Origin: a virus | DNA length: 25,642 bases | Reading direction: 5' to 3' (one strand) | Virus record (IMG/VR): IMGVR_UViG_3300044729_002459 | Location: 1 to 25,642 of that record | Part shown: in pieces, positions 5,822 to 24,379 of the stretch | How positions within the stretch are numbered: the stretch's first letter is position 1 | How the letters are laid out: every line of letters begins with the position of its first letter | Notes under the pieces: generated by a model | Told to the model about the DNA's origin: nothing | Database searches by the model: none | The model's input: only the letters and a program-made list of their open reading frames with translations | Position numbers and translations under genes: made by a program

Positions 5822-6310
5822 ATGTCCATTTCCCGCATGATCACCGCCGCTGGTACGGCGGTCTCCAACACCACCACCGAGACCTCCCTGGCCTCGTGGG
5901 CCGTCTCCGCGAACGAACTGCAGCCGAACAAGCTGTACCGCGTCACCGGCGCGATTCGGTCGACCGCGACGAACAGCACCGACACCCTCACCGTCACCAT
6001 CCGGTGGGGCACCTCGTCGACCATGTCCTCGAACACCTCGGTGTTTGCGACGACTGCGGTCGACCAGGCCAACGACGATGTGGTTGTGTTCGCGTTTGAT
6101 CTGCACGTGCAGACCGCCACGCGCGTCGCCGTGTCGGGCTTCATGACCGACGCTGACGCTGAAGGCAGCAAGCTGCTCGGCTCGGTCTACCACGTCCTGA
6201 CGACCGCAAAGGACACGGCCTACCGGCTCGACGTGACCGCTACCTGGTCGGTGGCGAACGCTGGCAACTCCTGCCAGGCCGAAGCCTTCACCATCGTCGA
6301 GATCGTCTGA
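5822..6310 (+). CDS. Probable capsid decoration or other abundant beta-rich structural protein
   Basis: The 162-residue protein is rich in Thr, Ser, Val and Ala with alternating strand patterns (LTVTIRWGTSS, VVVFAFDLHVQT, RLDVTATWSV), has almost no long helix, and lacks a signal peptide. Its third codon positions are strongly biased to C, like the major capsid gene, which suggests an abundant virion protein. GAGAGG lies just before ATG 5822 and the stop overlaps the next start as TGATG. A decoration, cement or spike role on the head fits best, but no family was recognised. Confidence 0.55.
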   Translation: MSISRMITAAGTAVSNTTTETSLASWAVSANELQPNKLYRVTGAIRSTATNSTDTLTVTIRWGTSSTMSSNTSVFATTAVDQANDDVVVFAFDLHVQTATRVAVSGFMTDADAEGSKLLGSVYHVLTTAKDTAYRLDVTATWSVANAGNSCQAEAFTIVEIV

Positions 6311-7059
6311 TGGCACTGGCGACCCGCTACAGCACGGACTTCCGTGTTGCGGATCTCATCCGCCGCGGCGTCACTACGACGCTGCGGTGTGCGATGTACC
6401 GCGGCGGGTCGCTGGTCGCTCCGGTGTCCGGGACGGTGTCGATCTACGATCAAGCCGGGACGGCCATTGTCACTGCGGCGGCGGTTGTCGTCGCCGATGG
6501 CGTCGCCACCTATGACGTGCTCGGGACGACGACGGCGTCGCTGCAGCTGCGCGAAGGCTGGCGGGTGTCCTGGTCGCTGACCATGCCTGATGGCGTTGTT
6601 CACGTAGCAGAGAACAACGCCATTTTGGCGCGGCACGTCCCGCACTGCCCGGTGTCCGAGCGTGACATTTGGTCCCGCGTGCCGAGCTTGCACCCCGACT
6701 CTTCGGGGCGGATCTCGACGCGCCGGGACTACTCGACGACGATTGACGATGCGTGGGTGCAGATCCAAGACGGCCTGCTCAGCAAGGGCCGCCGGCACGA
6801 GCTCGTCGTCACCGCCACGCAGCTCCGCGAAGTCACGCTGCTGCTGTGTCTCGCTTTGATCTTTGAGGACCTTGCCGCCGGCATGCAGGACGGCTCGGCG
6901 ATGCGGCTGTCCGCTGCCGACTACCGCCGCCAGTACGCCACGATGTGGGCGCAGCTGTCGTTCGACTACGACTCGGACGATGACGGGACGCCCGACACCC
7001 GGGCGTCGGCGCCGCAAACGGTGTGGTTGTACGGCGGTGACCGCCGCGGGTACCGCTGA
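6310..7059 (+). CDS. Head-tail connector / adaptor-like protein
   Basis: The 249-residue product appears to have two parts. Residues 1-100 form a beta-sandwich-like domain (LRCAMYRGGSLVAPVSGTV, DGVATYDVLGT). Residues from about 115 are helical and end with SAADYRRQYATMWAQLSFDYDSDDDG. This closing pattern, a helix with YRRQY followed by a strand and an acidic loop, is common in head-completion and adaptor proteins. Position between capsid and tail terminator genes supports that role at the portal-tail junction. Start and stop are both coupled to neighbours through TGATG. The exact family is inferred, not proved. Confidence 0.6.
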   Translation: MALATRYSTDFRVADLIRRGVTTTLRCAMYRGGSLVAPVSGTVSIYDQAGTAIVTAAAVVVADGVATYDVLGTTTASLQLREGWRVSWSLTMPDGVVHVAENNAILARHVPHCPVSERDIWSRVPSLHPDSSGRISTRRDYSTTIDDAWVQIQDGLLSKGRRHELVVTATQLREVTLLLCLALIFEDLAAGMQDGSAMRLSAADYRRQYATMWAQLSFDYDSDDDGTPDTRASAPQTVWLYGGDRRGYR

Positions 7060-10652: not shown

Positions 10653-13600
10653 ATGGCGCGTCTCGGAAACGACCTGGCAGCGATCGCGGTACCGCCGTCC
10701 GGTCTGTATGACGCGCTGGCGGTGAACACCGCTACCTCGACGACGAGCAGCTACAGCCAGGCCGGTTTCGACCCTGGCGACGCTGAAAGCGAAGACGAGT
10801 ACGTCAAGATGGTGCCGCTGCTCAGCGGGCAGCAGGTCGCCGACCTTGAGATCGTGTCCCTCGTTTCGGGCATGCCGATGCTGTCGATCGTCGGTTCGGC
10901 GCAGCTCGGCTGGCGTTTCGCGGGCGACCCTGCCGCATCCACGCGCGGCTGGATTGCGCCGAACTGGCTTACGGGCGTTCTGACCTACGAGCACACCACA
11001 TCGGGGTCGACCAGCTACCCGACCTGCGGCATCGTGACGCATCCGCAGTCGCAGAAAGTGGTCGCGGCCTACAAGTCCAGCTCGGCGCGGGTGGCGCGCA
11101 CTTATGACCCTGGCGAACACACGGTCACGCCGAACCAGAAGACCACCGCTGCTCGAGAGATTCGGGCGGACTGGGATCCGTCGGACGCGATCGTGTGCTA
11201 CCCGACGACGGGCCGGATCGTGTGCATCGCTGCAAACCGCGCCTATCGCTCGGACAACGTCGGTCACGATTGGACGCTGCACTCAAGCGGCGTGTTCGCC
11301 ACCGAGATTGACTGGCAGAACATTGACTACGCTCGCGCCGCGGCGTCGGCCGACGGGTCGGCGCTGTACCTCGGAGAAGAGGAAACGTCGGGCACAATCT
11401 ACCAGGGCGTCAGCGTGGATGGCCTCGCCACGGTGGAGCTCGTCGGCAGCTGGTCAGGCGAGCGGCCGTCGGTGACGGCGCTGCCTGGCGGCGGATATGC
11501 GGTGGCCTGGATCGCGGACACAACCGACTACCCGCGGTGCGTGCGGCTGGCGTCTCCGTGGCAGCCGGTCGGCGATGTGGAGTCGGTCGTCATTACGTCG
11601 ACGGCCTGCGATCACGTTGCCCTCGTGGCCGACCCTGACGGGATGCTGACGGCCTACTACTCGCCGTCCGGGGCGCAGGGCCAGATCCGTATGTCGGTGT
11701 CACTTGACGGCGGCGCCACCTGGACGGCGTACACGGAAGGCTGTCTGCGGTCGCTGTCGACCGACCGCCCGCTGGTCGAATACGTGGCAGCCTACAGCGC
11801 GGGCGCGCACATTCTGGCGGGGCAGTCGTCGGCGGACACCGCGACCGTGGATGGCACGCTGTGGATCTACCGGCTCGGGGGCTACTCGACGCTGGTCCCG
11901 TCAATCCCGGGCTGGACAGTTGCGCGCGATTTCACCGCTCGAGGTGGTACGGGTTTTTCTTCGGGGCAGAGCAACTGCAGCTGGACGCCGATCGAATTGC
12001 CGGGTGACGCGTCCTGGACGGCGGCGGGGACGGCGACGCAGAGCCTGACGATCGACGGCGTTCGCATCCAGGCGACGGCTGGGCAGACTCGCACTTACGA
12101 GCGGGACATTGGCGCTACGAGCTCCACCTCGGTGTGCGTGTTCGAGGTCGTTGCCGTGCAAGGTGGCGATGTGACCACAAACGAGATCGCGCTGAAGAAG
12201 CGCGTCTCTGATGCCAGCAACGAGCGCGAGCTGGTCATCGCACTTGAGGACGATGGGTCGGTCCGAGCGCGCGATGGCGTTGCAAACACGACGCTGGGCA
12301 CGGTCACGATGGACCCTGACACCATGCTGCAGATCATGGTGCAGGTGTCGACGAGCAGCGCGATCAACTCCGGCGCGTGGGTCCGCTACCCATACCAGTC
12401 CAAGTGGACCGAGATCTGGACGGGTGCATTGGACAACGACACGGCAACGCCGGCTGGGACCAGCCGCCTGCAGTGGGGGCACATTTCAGCGAGCGCTGCC
12501 AATTCGGATTCACGGTGGCGCCTGGTCTGCGACACGGAAAGCACGCAGCTGGGGTATGGCATCGCGCACCCGCAGGCGCTGGGACGGCCGGTCAGCGCGC
12601 GCCCGTATCCGCTGGCCATTGAGGCCGGTCTGGGCTCGGCTGGCGTGTCGAGCGGGGACTATCTGCCCCTGTTCCTGAGCGCCGCCGGAGGGCCCGCCGC
12701 GCTCAAGGAAGTGTGGTCCATCGCGCGCCGGCCGACGCACCCGGTGTCCAGGCTGTTTCCGACCGAATCGCCGTCGCCGTCCGAGCCGTGGCGGTCGACG
12801 GACAAAAGCGAACAGCTGATCGTCTTCGACTTCACCCGCAACCGGTGGCTGGGTGACCAGCTGGCGCTGGTCGCCATCAACGTGAATTTCCGCGCGGCCG
12901 ACCTGCAATACTACGACGGCGCGGCGTGGCAGACGCTCGGTTCGCTCGACCTGGCTTCGGGCTTCACCTCGACGACGGGCACCATCAGCGGCGTGTCGAT
13001 GGTGCCCGCAGCGGCGACGTCGGCAGGCGGGCGGTACCTGCAGGCGGGGGAGCTCGTCGACGGGTACGCGGTGATCGACACCGGCTCGCCGGTCGTCACG
13101 AAGGCCCGCCGCATCAGCGGCCAGACGGCGGGGTGGTGGCGATCGGGCACCGGCCAACCTGAAGCACGGCTGACGCTTGAGGGCATGGATGGCACGGAGA
13201 ACACTGCGACGGCGGCCATCCTGGTGGCCCGGTCGGGGGTGCTCGTCGTTCACCTCGGTTCGCTGGTAGCGTACCGCCGCTGGCGCATCCGCATCCCGGC
13301 CAACCAGGTGACGCCCGATTCTCATTATGAGGCGGGCCTGCTGTCGGTCATGCGGGTGCAGCTGCTCGGCTCGGCGCCCGCGTGGGGCTGGTCGCAAGAG
13401 ACGGCGCCGAACGTGTCCACCTCGCGCGCGAGAAACGGCGCGACGACGGCGTCTCAACTCGGGCCAGCCATCACGACTTGGACGATGGATTGGGCGGATG
13501 GCGTTGACCTGAAAGCGCTGCGCAGCGACGGCTCGGCGGTAGACTGGCAAGCGCCGTCGGGCGGGTACACGTCGGGCGGCATCACTGCGGAGGACGTGGG

Positions 13601-15760: not shown

Positions 15761-16117
15761 ATGGCGGGCGAGCTCCACAACATGGTGCCGGCGCGGTTCG
15801 ACCATGAGCTAGTCATCGGCGACACCTACCGTGTCGAGCTGGTGCTCGAGGATGAGGACACCGGCGCCGCCATCGACCTCTCTGCGGTCACGGCCGGCAC
15901 TGTCAAGCTGCGCACTGAGCCGGGCGGCGTGGTGCTGTTGACGCCTTCGGTGTCGCTGACGGACAAGGCCATCGGCAAGATCGTGTGGTCCAGCCCGCAC
16001 ACGACGACGGATGACTTGCAGCCGGGGACCGCGGTGTACGCGCTGCAGCTGGTCTCGGACACCTACACCACGGTGGTGGAAGGGCGGGTCGTCATCCGCC
16101 GCGCGGCGGTGGTCTGA
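15761..16117 (+). CDS. Small beta-sandwich tail protein, fibre-attachment-like
   Basis: The 118-residue protein is beta-rich, with the pattern [31 protein letters not shown] and a final strand set ending in [11 protein letters not shown]. Such immunoglobulin-like small domains occur at the N-terminus of baseplate upper or fibre-anchoring proteins. The gene has GGAGG at 15752-15756 before ATG 15761 and is coupled by TGATG to the fibre gene, so a role in attaching the fibre to the tip is a reasonable inference. The 33-nt gap upstream contains TATGCT at 15740-15745 but only a poor -35 box. Confidence 0.5.
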
Positions 16118-18351
16118 TGGCGACCACGCGAGCGGTGGTCCGGGTCAAGCGGGTGCGCGCCGTGGTGCGTGGCTCGCTGGTGCAGGTCGGCGGCGGCGGC
16201 GGCGGGATTGACGGCATCATCATCGAAGAGGGCGGCGTCCAGGTTGCTGCCGATGTGACGACCCTCAACGTCACCGGCGATGTGACGGCGACCGATGATG
16301 GCGGCGGGGTGGTCACGCTCAATGTGACCGGCGGCGGCATTGCTGGCGTCATCCTTGAGGAAGGTGGCGTCCAGGTCGCCACCGATGTGACGACCATCAA
16401 CATCACTGGTGAGGCCACGGTCACCGACGATGGCGGCGGCGTGGTCACGGTGGACGTGACGGGAGCGGGCAACGGGTCCACCGGTCCGGTGCACACGGTG
16501 CCGCTGGCGTCTGCGTTCTCGACGACGGTGGGGACCGGGATCACGCTGACCGACACCACGGCCGCGCTGATCCTTCGCGCGACTGGCCACGGCGCCTCGT
16601 TCGATGTGCAGCTCGCTGTGCAGTCCGCGCCGTCGTCCCCGTGGGTGCGGTATTTCCGGTTCGAAATGAACCCGGTGCAGAAGCAGTACCTGTATGGGGG
16701 CTTTGCGATCCGCCGTTCGTCGTCGGGCGCGTTCGTGCTGTGGAGCCTGATCCACACCGGAACGGCGTTGGAGCTTCAATACAGCGAGTATTCCAGCCCG
16801 ACGGCGCGCGCGTCGTTCACGACTGGCATTGCGACTGACGCCACCGCCGTCTACTTCAAGATCGAGGACGACGGGACCAACTTTATCCTGTCTGCCTCGC
16901 CGGGCGGTGAGGCAGGAACCTACGTCGTCGTGCACTCGGTCAGCCGCACGGCGTACCTGGCGGACTACAACCAGATTGGCTTTGCCGCTGATGCCTTCAA
17001 TGGGTCCAGCCCCGACCGCGATTGCATCCTGGCGATCCAGCACTACGGGTCGGCGGCCCCGACGTATGCCGCCGGGTCGGCCAACGGCGTCGGCGGGACG
17101 ACCGACCACGCATCGCTGACCTCGCTGGGCTGGACGCAGAGCGGCCACACCGGCACGGCGTCGACCGTCGCCGCGTTTGACGGGGCGGGCGCCGCGGTGA
17201 CGCGCGCGGCCGGAACGACGGGCCTCGCGCTCCTCGACGACGCGACGCAGGCGGACGCGCGGACTACGCTCGGCCTCGTGCCGGGCACGGACGTGCAGGC
17301 CTACGACGCGGGGCTTGCGAGCCTGGCGGGCGTCGACACCGCGGCTGACCTGGTGCCTTACACCACGGCCGCGGCGACCTGGGCGGCGACTACCCTGACC
17401 AGCTACATCCGCGGCCTCCTCGACGACGTAGACGCCGCGACGGCGCGGGGGACGCTGAGCGCGATCTCCGGCTGGACGGTGACGGTCGACGTGCAGTCCG
17501 GGACCTCCGGCACCTACACGGCGCCGGCGGGGGCCGTGGTCGCGATCGTGGACCTCTGGGGCGGCTCCGGCGGCGGCGGCGGGGGCGCGCGTCAGGACGC
17601 GGCGACTACCTGCACCGGAGGCGCGTCCGGGCAGGCCGGAGAATGGCTCAGGTGGGTGGATAGTCCTGCCGCCATCAACGGGCTCTCGTGGTCCGGCGGC
17701 GCCGGCGGCAGTGGGGGCGCGGGGCGGACGGGAAGCACCGGAGCCGGTATCGCGGGCGGGGCGGGGTCGGACTCGACGTTCGCGGGGCGCGTGGCCGGTG
17801 GCGGATCTAGCGGCGGCGGCGGTTCGGCGACCGGCGCGTCTCTCGGCGGGGGATGCGGGACGACTGGCGCGCCCACTGCCACCGCTACTCGCACTGCATA
17901 CCGCACGGGCACCGCGCTTGTTGCCGGCAAGGCTGCAGCATTGGCGGTGCCTGGGGTCGGGTCTGCTGCCGCCACAACCGCGCAACGCGGCATTGACGCT
18001 ACGGGCGGCGGTGGCGCGTCTGGTGGTCATGGCGGGTCGATGTCGACCACGGCAGCTGGCGCCGGTGGTGACGGTGGCGCGCAGGGTTCGACGGCTGGTG
18101 GTACGGGGGGCGCAAACACCGGTGCGGCTGGCGGCAATGGCACCACGCCATCAAGTGCTTGGCTGCCAGGTTCGGCTGGCGGCGGCGGTGGTGCCAATCA
18201 GACGGGGGCGGGCGGCGCGGCGGGCACGCCAGGTCGCGGATGTAGTGGCGCTGGTGGAGGCGCGGGCCGCACTGGTAACGGGGCAAACGGGTCTGCCGGC
18301 GCGGACGGTGGATGCTGCATCCGCACGATTTGCATCACGGCGACGGCGTAG
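16117..18351 (+). CDS. Tail fibre with N-terminal repeats and glycine-rich tip
   Basis: The 744-residue protein shows clear fibre modules. Residues 33-118 are two copies of a 44-residue beta repeat ([20 protein letters not shown]). Residues about 125-312 form a probable lectin-like jelly roll. Then come the fibre motifs [34 protein letters not shown] and [19 protein letters not shown], found in many phage fibres. From about residue 468 a [18 protein letters not shown] strand leads into some 240 residues extremely rich in Gly (GGSGGGGGG and similar), likely packed polyglycine helices forming the receptor-binding tip. The protein ends with a Cys-containing segment, [14 protein letters not shown]. 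It is followed by a fibre-assembly-like gene. Confidence 0.85.
16213..16470 (+). repeat. Two tandem 132-bp coding repeats in the fibre gene
   Basis: Unit 1 (16213-16344) and unit 2 (16345-16470) encode matching protein repeats, [17 protein letters not shown] and [17 protein letters not shown], each followed by a TDDGGGVVT strand. The period is 44 residues. The nucleotide copies are similar but not identical, so this is an established duplication maintained at protein level rather than a recent one. Confidence 0.8.
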
Positions 18352-19562: not shown

Positions 19563-20038
19563 TGCTCAGGCGGGCGGTGGAGCAGGCTGTGCGGCTGCAT
19601 GCGACCCCGGAGCCGCAGATGGACCAGTGTTGCGTGTTCGCCCGGCTGGTGCTGCGCCAACTGTACGGCGCCGCGGCGGTCGACCGCGCGCCGGTGGCGG
19701 ACTGGCACTTGTGGGACGTGGCGCGCCCGTGGTCTCCGGTGGAGGCGGCGCAGCTGGCGGGCATCGCGGTGTCGGTGTCGCTGCCTCCGGCAGTCGCCAC
19801 ACCGAAGCCCGGCATGCTGCACCAGTGCCAGGGGTGGCGGGGGACGCCGGGGGCAGCCGGTGTCACCGGGCACACCTGGCTGTGGTGGGCGGTGTCCGAG
19901 ACGGCGGGACTGCAGATTGACTCCGCCGCGCCTCCATTTCGCGCTGCACCCGCCATCCAGCTTCGGCCGCGGATGTGGGCGGATGTGGTGGCGCCCTACC
20001 GGTTCGGGGTGGCAGTCGCGGTGCTAAAGCAGGTTTGA
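19562..20038 (+). CDS. Putative Cys/His cell-wall hydrolase (endolysin candidate)
   Basis: The 158-residue protein has features of a papain-like (NlpC/P60 or CHAP-type) peptidase: Cys23-Cys24 at the start of a helix (DQCCVFARLVLRQLYG), His104 in a strand (GVTGHTWLWW) and Asp120 in LQIDSA, giving a plausible Cys-His-Asp triad in the right order. It lies immediately downstream of two small membrane proteins, as endolysins do, and starts at ATG 19562 by TGATG overlap. There is no separate wall-binding domain and no signal peptide. It could instead be a fold-related non-catalytic protein; family identity is inferred. Confidence 0.5.
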   Translation: MLRRAVEQAVRLHATPEPQMDQCCVFARLVLRQLYGAAAVDRAPVADWHLWDVARPWSPVEAAQLAGIAVSVSLPPAVATPKPGMLHQCQGWRGTPGAAGVTGHTWLWWAVSETAGLQIDSAAPPFRAAPAIQLRPRMWADVVAPYRFGVAVAVLKQV

Positions 20039-20076
20039 CCTGCTACCTCGGCGGACGCTAAAAAAAGTTATCGGAA

Positions 20077-20097
20077 ACCCTTGTCGGCCACGGGTTC
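20077..20097. promoter_or_regulatory. Imperfect inverted repeat over the -35 box, possible operator
   Basis: AACCCTTG and CACGGGTT pair at seven of eight positions around a 5-nt centre (TCGGC). The repeat covers the -35 box at 20081-20086, so a dimeric DNA-binding protein here would block transcription. The ribbon-helix-helix protein encoded second in the unit is an obvious candidate for autorepression, but binding is inference. Confidence 0.4.
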
Positions 20098-20109
20098 GCG
20101 TCATACAGT
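20081..20109 (+). promoter_or_regulatory. Promoter for the acidic protein / RHH unit
   Basis: TTGTCG (20081-20086), a 17-nt spacer and TACAGT (20104-20109) each match four of six consensus bases with ideal spacing. It lies in the 114-nt gap between the lysis genes and the acidic protein. An A-rich stretch just upstream (seven A at 20060-20066) could help as an UP-like element. It supports independent expression of the two genes that follow. Confidence 0.6.
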
Positions 20110-20113
20110 ATCT

Positions 20114-20143
20114 CCATCGGACGGCAACGAACGCCGCCGACGG
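20114..20143 (+). promoter_or_regulatory. Leader hairpin touching the ribosome binding site
   Basis: CCATCGGACGGC (20114-20125) and GCCGCCGACGG (20133-20143) can pair around the loop AACGAAC with one mismatch and one bulge. The right arm includes the first two bases of the GGAG ribosome binding site (20142-20145) of the gene starting at 20153. Folding could lower translation or stabilise the 5' end of the mRNA. A transcript starting near 20116 would remove part of the left arm, which weakens the case. Confidence 0.3.
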
Positions 20144-20152
20144 AGCGACACC

Positions 20153-20596
20153 ATGACCCCGACCACTGCGACCGCGTACTACACTATGATCCTCGGCGAC
20201 CGGACGGAGCTCGACGTGGCGACCGACGCCCGCGCGGCCGGCGCCTCGATCCACGACTACCTCGTCGACGCGCACGACGCCGCGGTGTCCGTCGGCATGG
20301 TCGCCACCGATGAGTGCGACGCGTGGCTCGACGCAATCGAGACCCGCGTGATGGCGGCCTGGGACGGGTCGTCGGTGGTCGAGGTCGAGATCGAGGTAGC
20401 TGGCGCGACGTACGGGGCCCGCGTCGACCGCGGCGCGGCCACGACTCTCCGCCCCGTGGTCCGCGTCTCGATCAGCCGCAATGGTGTGTACGCGGGGTCG
20501 GGCTGGTGGGATGACGCGATCGTCGACTGCCCCGCCGACCTTGGCGACGACGCGTTCAATGCGATTGACATTGCGATCCGCGCGGCGCTCGCGTGA
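20153..20596 (+). CDS. Small very acidic protein, unknown (moron / counter-defence candidate)
   Basis: I do not recognise this 147-residue protein. It has about 24 Asp/Glu against nine Arg and no Lys, a net charge near -15. Residues about 15-65 look helical (SIHDYLVDAHDAAVSVGMVA), 70-110 beta (SVVEVEIEVAGATYGARV, VVRVSISRNGVYA), and the end is an acidic helix (DDAFNAIDIAIRAAL). ATG 20153 has GGAG at 20142-20145, spaced 7 nt; a TTG further upstream lies inside the promoter and is rejected. Own promoter, strong acidity and coupling (GTGA) to a small DNA-binding protein recall anti-CRISPR or anti-restriction units, but no sequence family supports that. Confidence 0.6.
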   Translation: MTPTTATAYYTMILGDRTELDVATDARAAGASIHDYLVDAHDAAVSVGMVATDECDAWLDAIETRVMAAWDGSSVVEVEIEVAGATYGARVDRGAATTLRPVVRVSISRNGVYAGSGWWDDAIVDCPADLGDDAFNAIDIAIRAALA

Positions 20597-20799
20597 CGCG
20601 GCGACCTGGCCGCCCGTCGTTCGCCGACCGTACCGCGGTCCGCTCGGAGATCGTCGCCGTCCGGCTGACGCCGGCCGAGCGCGACGAGCTCGAGCGCCGA
20701 GCAGAACTGCAGCTCACGTCCGGCGGCGAGCTGCTACGACGAGCCGCGCTGCAGCCGCCCAGCGACCCAGGCAAGGCGGACGGCGAGCCCGACGTCTGA
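20593..20799 (+). CDS. Ribbon-helix-helix (CopG/Arc-like) DNA-binding protein
   Basis: The 68-residue protein has a basic N-terminus, then the RHH pattern: strand EIVAVRLT, helix PAERDELERRAELQ, a turn, and helix GGELLRRAAL, followed by a polar tail. Such proteins dimerise and bind short inverted repeats through the strand. It starts at GTG 20593 overlapping the previous stop and is probably co-expressed with the acidic protein. Autoregulation of that promoter is the simplest role. The last 66 nt overlap tail-to-tail with the minus-strand gene at 20734-21342. Confidence 0.7.
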   Translation: MTRRPGRPSFADRTAVRSEIVAVRLTPAERDELERRAELQLTSGGELLRRAALQPPSDPGKADGEPDV

Positions 20800-21342
20800 T
20801 GCCAGCGGCGGTTGGGCGTGGTCCACGATGGCCATCGCCACGGCCGCCAGTGCCCGCCCCTCGGACGTGCGCCCGGCTTCTATGTCGAGCAGCTCCACCG
20901 CCAGCAAGCGGCATCCTGCCCGCCATGCGTAGGCCGCGGCGTCCAGCAGCTCCTCGCGCAGGTCCAGCTCCGGGTCTCGCCCGTCGTCGTACTGCAGGGG
21001 CTGGCCGTAGCGCGCGAGGCCCACGGCGCGGCGCTCGACACACACAGCGTGCAGCGGGTGGCCGGAGCCGATGTGCTCAATCAGCTCCTGCCACACGTCC
21101 CCGTGCCCGCCGCTTGGCTCCGGCTGGGTAGGGCGCAGCCGGCCGACCTCCTGCTCAAGCACCCGGACCCGTTCCACCGCTTCGTCGCGCTCGAGGCGCA
21201 GAGCGTCGACCAGCGCGCGGATGGCGGTCTGCGCCTCCGCCGCCAGCCGCAGCTGCTCGACACGGTCCCGCACCTCGGACCACGTCGCATCCGCGCTCAG
21301 GCCGGCGGCGGTGGCCAGCGTCCACACGTCACGCGCGTTCAT
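20734..21342 (-). CDS. MazG-like / nucleotide pyrophosphohydrolase-like protein with coiled coil
   Basis: The 202-residue product starts at ATG 21342; GGGAG on the minus strand at 21348-21352 is 5 nt away. Residues 30-75 form a coiled coil (LVDALRLERDEAVERVRVLE). Residues about 105-165 contain VERRAVGLARYGQPLQ, DGRDPELDLREELLDAAAY and a further helix, the pattern of short phage MazG-like proteins in which the EELLD helix carries metal-binding acids. MazG-type enzymes hydrolyse nucleoside triphosphates or ppGpp-like molecules; substrate here is unknown. It is the last gene of the leftward operon and overlaps the RHH gene from the other strand. Confidence 0.6.
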   Translation of the reverse strand: MNARDVWTLATAAGLSADATWSEVRDRVEQLRLAAEAQTAIRALVDALRLERDEAVERVRVLEQEVGRLRPTQPEPSGGHGDVWQELIEHIGSGHPLHAVCVERRAVGLARYGQPLQYDDGRDPELDLREELLDAAAYAWRAGCRLLAVELLDIEAGRTSEGRALAAVAMAIVDHAQPPLASDVGLAVRLAWVAGRLQRGSS

Positions 21343-23304: not shown

Positions 23305-23517
23305 TCAGATTTCGCGGGACCACACGGCCCGCAGGTGTTCGGCAGTGTCGTCCAGCAGGCCGGCTGCCACCTGCTCGTCCAGGTCGGTGCGGTACCACAC
23401 CTCGCCGGCCTCGACGCGGTGCATGACGATCAGCATGTAGCCGCCATCCTGGCCGACTCGACGGTCCAGCACATCGCCCACGGCGTTGATCAAGTCACTG
23501 AGCTCGCGCTGTCTCAT
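23305..23517 (-). CDS. Small unknown protein
   Basis: The 70-residue protein begins at ATG 23517, overlapping the previous stop as ATGA; a start seven codons earlier would run into the upstream gene. It has an N-terminal helix (QRELSDLINAVGDVLDRRVG), a strand pair (GYMLIVMHRVEAGEVWYRTD) and a C-terminal helix (AAGLLDDTAEHLRAVW). I do not recognise a family. Tight coupling inside the operon supports that it is expressed. Confidence 0.6.
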   Translation of the reverse strand: MRQRELSDLINAVGDVLDRRVGQDGGYMLIVMHRVEAGEVWYRTDLDEQVAAGLLDDTAEHLRAVWSREI

Positions 23518-23909
23518 CGGGCACCCGTCGGCGGCCACGGATGGCCACCACGCTGGGCATAGCGCCGAGCCGCAGTGTACGCCGCTTCTTCGTGGTCATA
23601 GGCCCGCCACCAGTCCGGGGACTGGTCTGCCAAGCGGCGGTAGGTCAGCCCCGGTCGCTTGTCGAGCTCAAGCTTGGCGGGCGGCTCAAGCGGGACTTCG
23701 GCGGCGGTGCCAAGCCGCCAGATGGGGGCATCGCCCAGCGGCTCCACACCCACGCGCCAGACCAGCGCGTCATCCTCTGCAAGCGCCAGCAGGCTGGCGA
23801 CGTTGCGGCGGTCGCGGCCGGTGTGCTCGGCAATCTGCCGAGCCGTCGCATCGCCGAGCGTTCGGAGGCTGTCGAGCACATCCCAGCGGGCCACGGACAT
23901 ACGCTTCAT
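23514..23909 (-). CDS. Winged-helix DNA-binding protein
   Basis: The 131-residue protein starts at ATG 23909, overlapping the previous stop as ATGA. Residues 5-55 form a winged-helix module (VARWDVLDSLRTLGDATARQ, then AEHTGRDRRNVASLL and a wing with ALVWRVG). The rest is a mixed tail with WWRAYDHEEAAYTAARRYA and a Pro-rich end. The module closely resembles the first module of the neighbouring gene at 23906-24379, so they probably arose by duplication. A transcriptional regulator role is likely; the target is unknown. Confidence 0.7.
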   Translation of the reverse strand: MKRMSVARWDVLDSLRTLGDATARQIAEHTGRDRRNVASLLALAEDDALVWRVGVEPLGDAPIWRLGTAAEVPLEPPAKLELDKRPGLTYRRLADQSPDWWRAYDHEEAAYTAARRYAQRGGHPWPPTGAR

Positions 23910-24379
23910 TTCCGCACCCACACCGACGGGAAGTCCTTGACGACCAAGCGCCACACGATGGCGGGCGGCCCCTCGGACACCTTGCGGCGTCCAGCGCGCT
24001 CAATCAGCCCAACTTTCTCGGCGCGCATCACAACCGAATACATGGTTTTCTTGCTGCGATTGAGTGCCGCCACAATGGCGGGCATCGTGGCTTCTCCGCC
24101 ATTCCGCCGCATGTAGTCAAGCACCTGCCATCGAGCGCGACGCATATCAAGCACGGCAGGGTCAGGCTCAGAGACCAGCCCGGTGCAGGTGTAGCGATAG
24201 GCGTAATCGCCGTCGGGGATGGACACTGCGACCCGGGTCACCAGCTTCTGGTGGAGCATGCGCCCGATCATGCGGCCGATGGTGCCCTGATCACGTCCGG
24301 TGTCCTCTGCGATCTGGCGCAGCGTCGCGCCACCCAGCCGCTGGATGGTGTCGAGCACATCCCACTGCGCGGTCGTCAC
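23906..24379 (-). CDS. Tandem winged-helix DNA-binding protein
   Basis: The 157-residue protein contains two winged-helix modules. Module 1 spans about residues 3-52 (QWDVLDTIQRLGGATLRQIA, then TGRDQGTIGRMIGRM). Module 2 spans about 80-130 (RARWQVLDYMRRNGGEATMP, then NRSKKTMYSVVMRAEKVG). Both follow the MarR/replication-initiator-like pattern of helix, recognition helix and wing. It starts at GTG 24379 with GTGA overlap. Two DNA-binding modules in one chain could bind a long or two-part site such as an operator or origin. It is the larger of two related neighbours in the operon. Confidence 0.7.
   Translation of the reverse strand: MTTAQWDVLDTIQRLGGATLRQIAEDTGRDQGTIGRMIGRMLHQKLVTRVAVSIPDGDYAYRYTCTGLVSEPDPAVLDMRRARWQVLDYMRRNGGEATMPAIVAALNRSKKTMYSVVMRAEKVGLIERAGRRKVSEGPPAIVWRLVVKDFPSVWVRK

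Follow-up and report, generated by a model that had tools for sequence, protein, structure and literature searches.

Is the pair of small genes at 20039-20799 a regulated unit of its own, or the last part of the operon that precedes it? The window in which it lies (the whole stretch of 25,642 nucleotides that was analyzed, an IMG/VR virus record) belongs by gene content to an unclassified tailed phage. Head and tail genes in rightward orientation come first, with profile matches to major capsid and tape-measure proteins, and are followed by small genes up to 20038; then come a 114-bp gap, a gene for an acidic protein, a gene for an RHH protein, and leftward genes from 20734. The pair is sandwiched as the original prediction had it, between the rightward genes ending at 20038 and the convergent gene 20734-21342, which shares 66 bp at its 3' end with the RHH gene. 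A lysis cassette had also been placed upstream. The position after the rightward genes holds, but the lysis identity was a guess from that position: no PHROG was matched by any of the upstream genes 18312, 18914, 19299 and 19562, and 18312 and 19562, the two of the four that were compared with Pfam, have no match there either. The features of the locus are as follows.

20057..20078, plus strand: AT-rich tract with A7 at 20060-20066, where an UP element would lie (-59 to -38 relative to the predicted start)
20076..20096, unstranded: imperfect palindrome AACCCTTGTCGGCCACGGGTT over the -35 box, 8/10 pairs, candidate operator for the RHH protein
20081..20109, plus strand: sigma-70-like promoter TTGTCG-17-TACAGT, 8/12, predicted start 20116
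20112..20145, plus strand: leader hairpin, the 3' arm of which contains the Shine-Dalgarno (SD) sequence GGAG (20142-20145)
20153-20596, plus strand: acidic orphan gene, 147 aa, from translation and composition
20593-20799, plus strand: RHH gene, 68 aa, GTG start, 4-bp overlap with the acidic gene

The phage group is barely sampled, with the terminase and portal-side genes lacking any relative among 50,697 phage records, and the sole GenBank link of the phage is a capsid match (32%) to Phage DSL-LC06. Terminase and tail baits recovered the near-identical IMG/VR fragments L002, L003 and L005 and two more distant relatives, L004/L006 and L010 (45-48% terminase identity). All of these sister contigs (L006, L010 and the near-identical fragments) end short of the two-gene locus, and neither a virion-protein match nor universal conservation of the pair arose. 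No instance of the same junction in other phages was recovered with the neighbouring genes as bait.

Several other observations were made in the window. A stem of seven perfectly matched base pairs, closed by a 3-nt loop (AGCAGGT ttg ACCTGCT, 20028-20044), lies across the stop codon of the gene just before the gap; it has no T run and may be a terminator of a type outside the terminator scan. The minus-strand gene 23906-24379 encodes two helix-turn-helix regions, both resembling the winged-HTH part of CRISPR-associated Csa3/CasR models with E down to 9e-11, yet under the curated cut-off, and the adjacent 23514-23909 resembles a weaker copy of one half; both are possibly phage regulators. A 132-nt tandem duplication (16197-16460, copies 80% identical) lies within gene 16117-18351, whose glycine-rich product of 744 aa is probably part of the tail tip or of a fibre. 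The tRNA-Glu called by ARAGORN at 6323-6410, inside the start of gene 6310-7059, is probably false, since no Rfam tRNA model reached its gathering score there.

Both genes of the pair are real in their anatomy. The acidic gene has an ATG start with GGAG 7 nt upstream, and the GTG of the RHH gene overlaps its stop codon (GTGA, 4 bp, 20593-20596), so that the coupling of the two reading frames is as had been described. GC content by codon position (0.68/0.53/0.90) is that of other genes of the window.

The second gene had been taken to encode a small RHH DNA-binding protein, in agreement with a match to the Pfam NikA-like family (PF21983) at 28.3 bits against a curated cut-off of 27, the only match to this family in the record in a genome profile search. 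Autorepression is known for an RHH protein of this kind, MobC of plasmid RA3, whose binding site in its own two-gene operon is an imperfect palindrome located between the -35 and -10 boxes (PMC4175270). The pair studied here is similar in having an RHH protein, an imperfect palindrome at promoter boxes and two genes, whereas MobC has 176 aa, is encoded first in its operon and serves conjugation together with a relaxase. No relaxase match was found by Pfam in the flanking genes 19562 and 20734, and the acidic gene is likewise without a match; the domain is therefore held in common with NikA and MobC, but the mobilization role is not.

The acidic protein contains no lysine, 9 arginine, 18 aspartate and 6 glutamate residues, and recomputation confirmed the predicted net charge of -15 (pI 4.1). 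Its charge per residue is the most negative among the 29 window proteins (z -2.7), and it has the strong acidity in a small protein that is expected of a DNA mimic (net -15 in 147 aa). The lack of lysine, although true, is not distinctive, as 8 of the 29 window proteins are also without it; lysine makes up only 1.9% of residues in the window proteins, which explains why its absence is common (a protein of 147 residues would have a chance of about 6% of containing none). The charge, and not the missing lysine, is the real oddity of this protein.

The original prediction claimed no homology, and none emerged: no credible homologue of the acidic protein was found in Pfam, PHROGs, NCBIfam, PADLOC or PDB sequences, nor among phages, plasmids, IMG/VR and GTDB genomes. 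As accessory genes are expected to be without relatives, this counts for an accessory function. Two candidates were set aside. One is a 33-bit match at 11768-11956 of sister contig L006, lying out of frame in a tail gene and containing 14 gaps in 64 columns. None of 300 shuffled queries of the same composition reached this score (best 30.4 bits); the match was treated as accidental because the frame concerned is not a gene. The other, a blastn match to Mycobacterium phage Keshu, was rejected as protein similarity is absent.

Structure prediction and comparison with DNA mimics had been proposed as a check, and this succeeded in part. Single-sequence AlphaFold2 failed on the whole acidic protein (pLDDT 44); residues 70-147 alone were modelled as two beta hairpins and a helix with pLDDT 68, the other four models reaching at most 47. 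In a fold search this C-terminal model resembled SAV0927 (best Z 6.4) and PUR-alpha repeats (5.3), and lower down the acidic UDG inhibitor SAUGI (4.2) and p32, but none stands out, Z scores up to 6.4 being in the background range of the tool, and DNA mimics fit no better than unrelated folds. No function is drawn from these resemblances.

Of the promoter that the original prediction assigned to the pair, sigma-70-like boxes are present and are backed by the AT-richest spot of the window, but their strength is low: at 8/12 they fall below the scanner threshold of 9/12, as scored against a sigma-70 consensus that may not be that of the host. A promoter as good is held by 3.9% of random sequences of leader composition; P values for this and the other leader features are per test and uncorrected for the several features examined. 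The AT-richest 13-mer of the window (0.92) begins at 20059, in a tract that also holds the longest A run of the window and would be well placed to act as an UP element. Because the -10 box ends at 20109, a standard start would fall at 20116, an A. The inverted repeat reported over the -35 box is present one nucleotide away from its described position, at 20076-20096, but it is within chance (13% of random leaders have one as good, P ~0.13). It occurs as a single copy in the window, and the RHH protein may bind there.

The leader hairpin that had been noticed earlier was borne out, with a predicted stability of -19.4 kcal/mol (fold z -2.8, from one sequence); no Rfam family was matched. That the hairpin covers the SD is new here, having been missed in the earlier reading: its CUCC arm pairs with the SD GGAG. 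Opening the SD is calculated to cost 8.2 kcal/mol on read-through RNA versus 2.6 on RNA starting at 20116, from which the CUCC arm is lost. The minimum of this cost falls exactly at starts 20115-20117 and the cost rises again on either side. Only 0.4% of shuffled leaders match the drop, which ranks second among 184 GGAG sites in the window, the first being the same hairpin on the other strand. The trimmed leader still keeps a stem beside the SD, and the SDs of genes 1941 and 15761 also require about 8 kcal/mol to open, so that occlusion of the SD is not unusual for this GC-rich genome.

Our best explanation, which remains tentative, is that the pair is a self-contained, autoregulated accessory (moron-like) operon that is translationally insulated from late read-through. 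A sigma-70-type promoter of its own would produce a short-leader mRNA from near 20116 with the ribosome site largely free, and the RHH protein, made by coupled translation, would bind near the promoter and repress it. Messages reading through from the upstream operon would carry the full hairpin and hide the ribosome site, so the pair would not be made from them; as the upstream operon is presumed to be late, late read-through would be silent and the pair would be expressed only from its own promoter. Production of the acidic protein would then be confined to the early phase or the prophage, with the RHH protein controlling its dosage, and its most likely role would be to bind a host protein in the cytoplasm. 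What argues for this accessory operon is the RHH match over its cut-off, the GTGA coupling, the AT-richest spot before the promoter boxes and the statistics of the SD hairpin, together with the likeness to NikA/MobC-type autorepression and to the T4 e and I-TevI geometry. It is weakened by the 8/12 promoter, the palindrome within chance, the other costly SDs and the residual stem.

In T4, the SD or start codon of e, soc, 49 and I-TevI is sequestered on long messages, and for e and I-TevI late promoters beside the ribosome site give a translated RNA from which the 5' portion of the structure is missing; the I-TevI protein acts in addition as a repressor of its own promoter (PMC3014915, PMC2988022). 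The leader studied here is predicted to be similar in that the SD is sequestered in a helix on long, read-through transcripts and RNA from an adjacent candidate promoter should lack the 5' strand. In T4 it is a late gene that is silenced on early or middle long messages, whereas the long message here would be late; the start is a predicted one, and there is no sequence relationship.

A special case of the accessory operon, and a rather unlikely one, is an anti-defence operon of the acr-aca type. The acidic protein, possibly by mimicking DNA, would then inhibit a nuclease or CRISPR complex of the host, and the RHH protein would play the part of an Aca-like repressor. The original prediction pointed to morons and acr-aca pairs, and the layout stands, with a small orphan gene followed in one operon by a coupled small DNA-binding gene at the end of a presumed late operon. 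An inverted repeat lies at the core promoter, as in acr-aca operons (PMC9410906), and the first product is the most acidic of the window. RHH domains also occur among predicted anti-defence genes of archaeal viruses. However, the described bacterial families, Aca1-10, are HTH proteins (PMC9410906), whereas an RHH family is matched here and PADLOC and other family matches are absent; the inverted repeat is no better than chance, and the C-terminal model does not favour mimics. The pair may work like an acr-aca operon but is not filed as one, given this difference in domain and the lack of any known inhibitor activity. The anti-defence or DNA-mimic part of the original prediction gained no positive support, as no family, structure or neighbour points there, and such a role for the acidic protein is plausible but unsupported. 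Aca2 is reported to bind its own mRNA leader besides its operator, and by analogy the leader hairpin might also be a protein-binding site.

It is also unlikely that these are two ordinary late genes ending the lysis operon, with the promoter, palindrome and hairpin arising by chance or the hairpin acting as a terminator or processing site. This would agree with a promoter under threshold, a palindrome within chance, the partly paired SDs of several window genes, and a terminator scan that returned zero intrinsic terminators. It accounts poorly for a 114-nt gap inside a tightly packed operon and for the coincidence of the AT-richest spot of the window with a hairpin matched by few shuffles; a terminator, moreover, would not need a stem that ends in the SD.

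Alternatively, although we consider it distinctly unlikely, the pair may consist of regulators at the early-late junction, the RHH protein being an Arc-like repressor of other phage promoters and the acidic protein its partner or antagonist. The RHH protein matches the PHROG Arc-like repressor with E 0.008, and a DNA match led to a core motif, VRLT..ERDELE..A, common to it and to gp12 of Burkholderia phage KL3, an Arc-like repressor of similar length; no significant relatives were found by protein search of phages, plasmids and IMG/VR. KL3 is a P2-like phage and gp12 maps to its repressor region, but no coupled acidic partner gene is apparent beside gp12, and the candidate operator occurs only once in our window.

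A toxin-first type II toxin-antitoxin-like pair, whose antitoxin and autorepressor would be the RHH protein, is highly improbable: there are two coupled genes with the RHH gene second in an autoregulatory layout, and toxin-first operons look like acr-aca loci, but Pfam and NCBIfam contain no toxin family into which so acidic a protein of 147 aa would fit, and these libraries gave no toxin match beside the RHH protein.

To return to the insulated accessory operon, a version of it that we regard as very doubtful would make the pair an anti-defence (moron) operon with two locks, the RHH autorepressor at the promoter and the hairpin silencing translation from late read-through, with the operon's own start trimming the hairpin. 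Such an operon would combine an RHH counterpart of acr-aca, a T4-like insulator and a protein family without relatives. If the insulated accessory operon is the right reading, it shows how a phage can attach an extra gene to the end of a strong late operon and avoid overproducing it late in infection, the ribosome site being masked on read-through RNA and freed only on the gene's own transcript. This arrangement would provide a feature by which genomes could be scanned for accessory or anti-defence genes that are insulated in this way and lack homologues.
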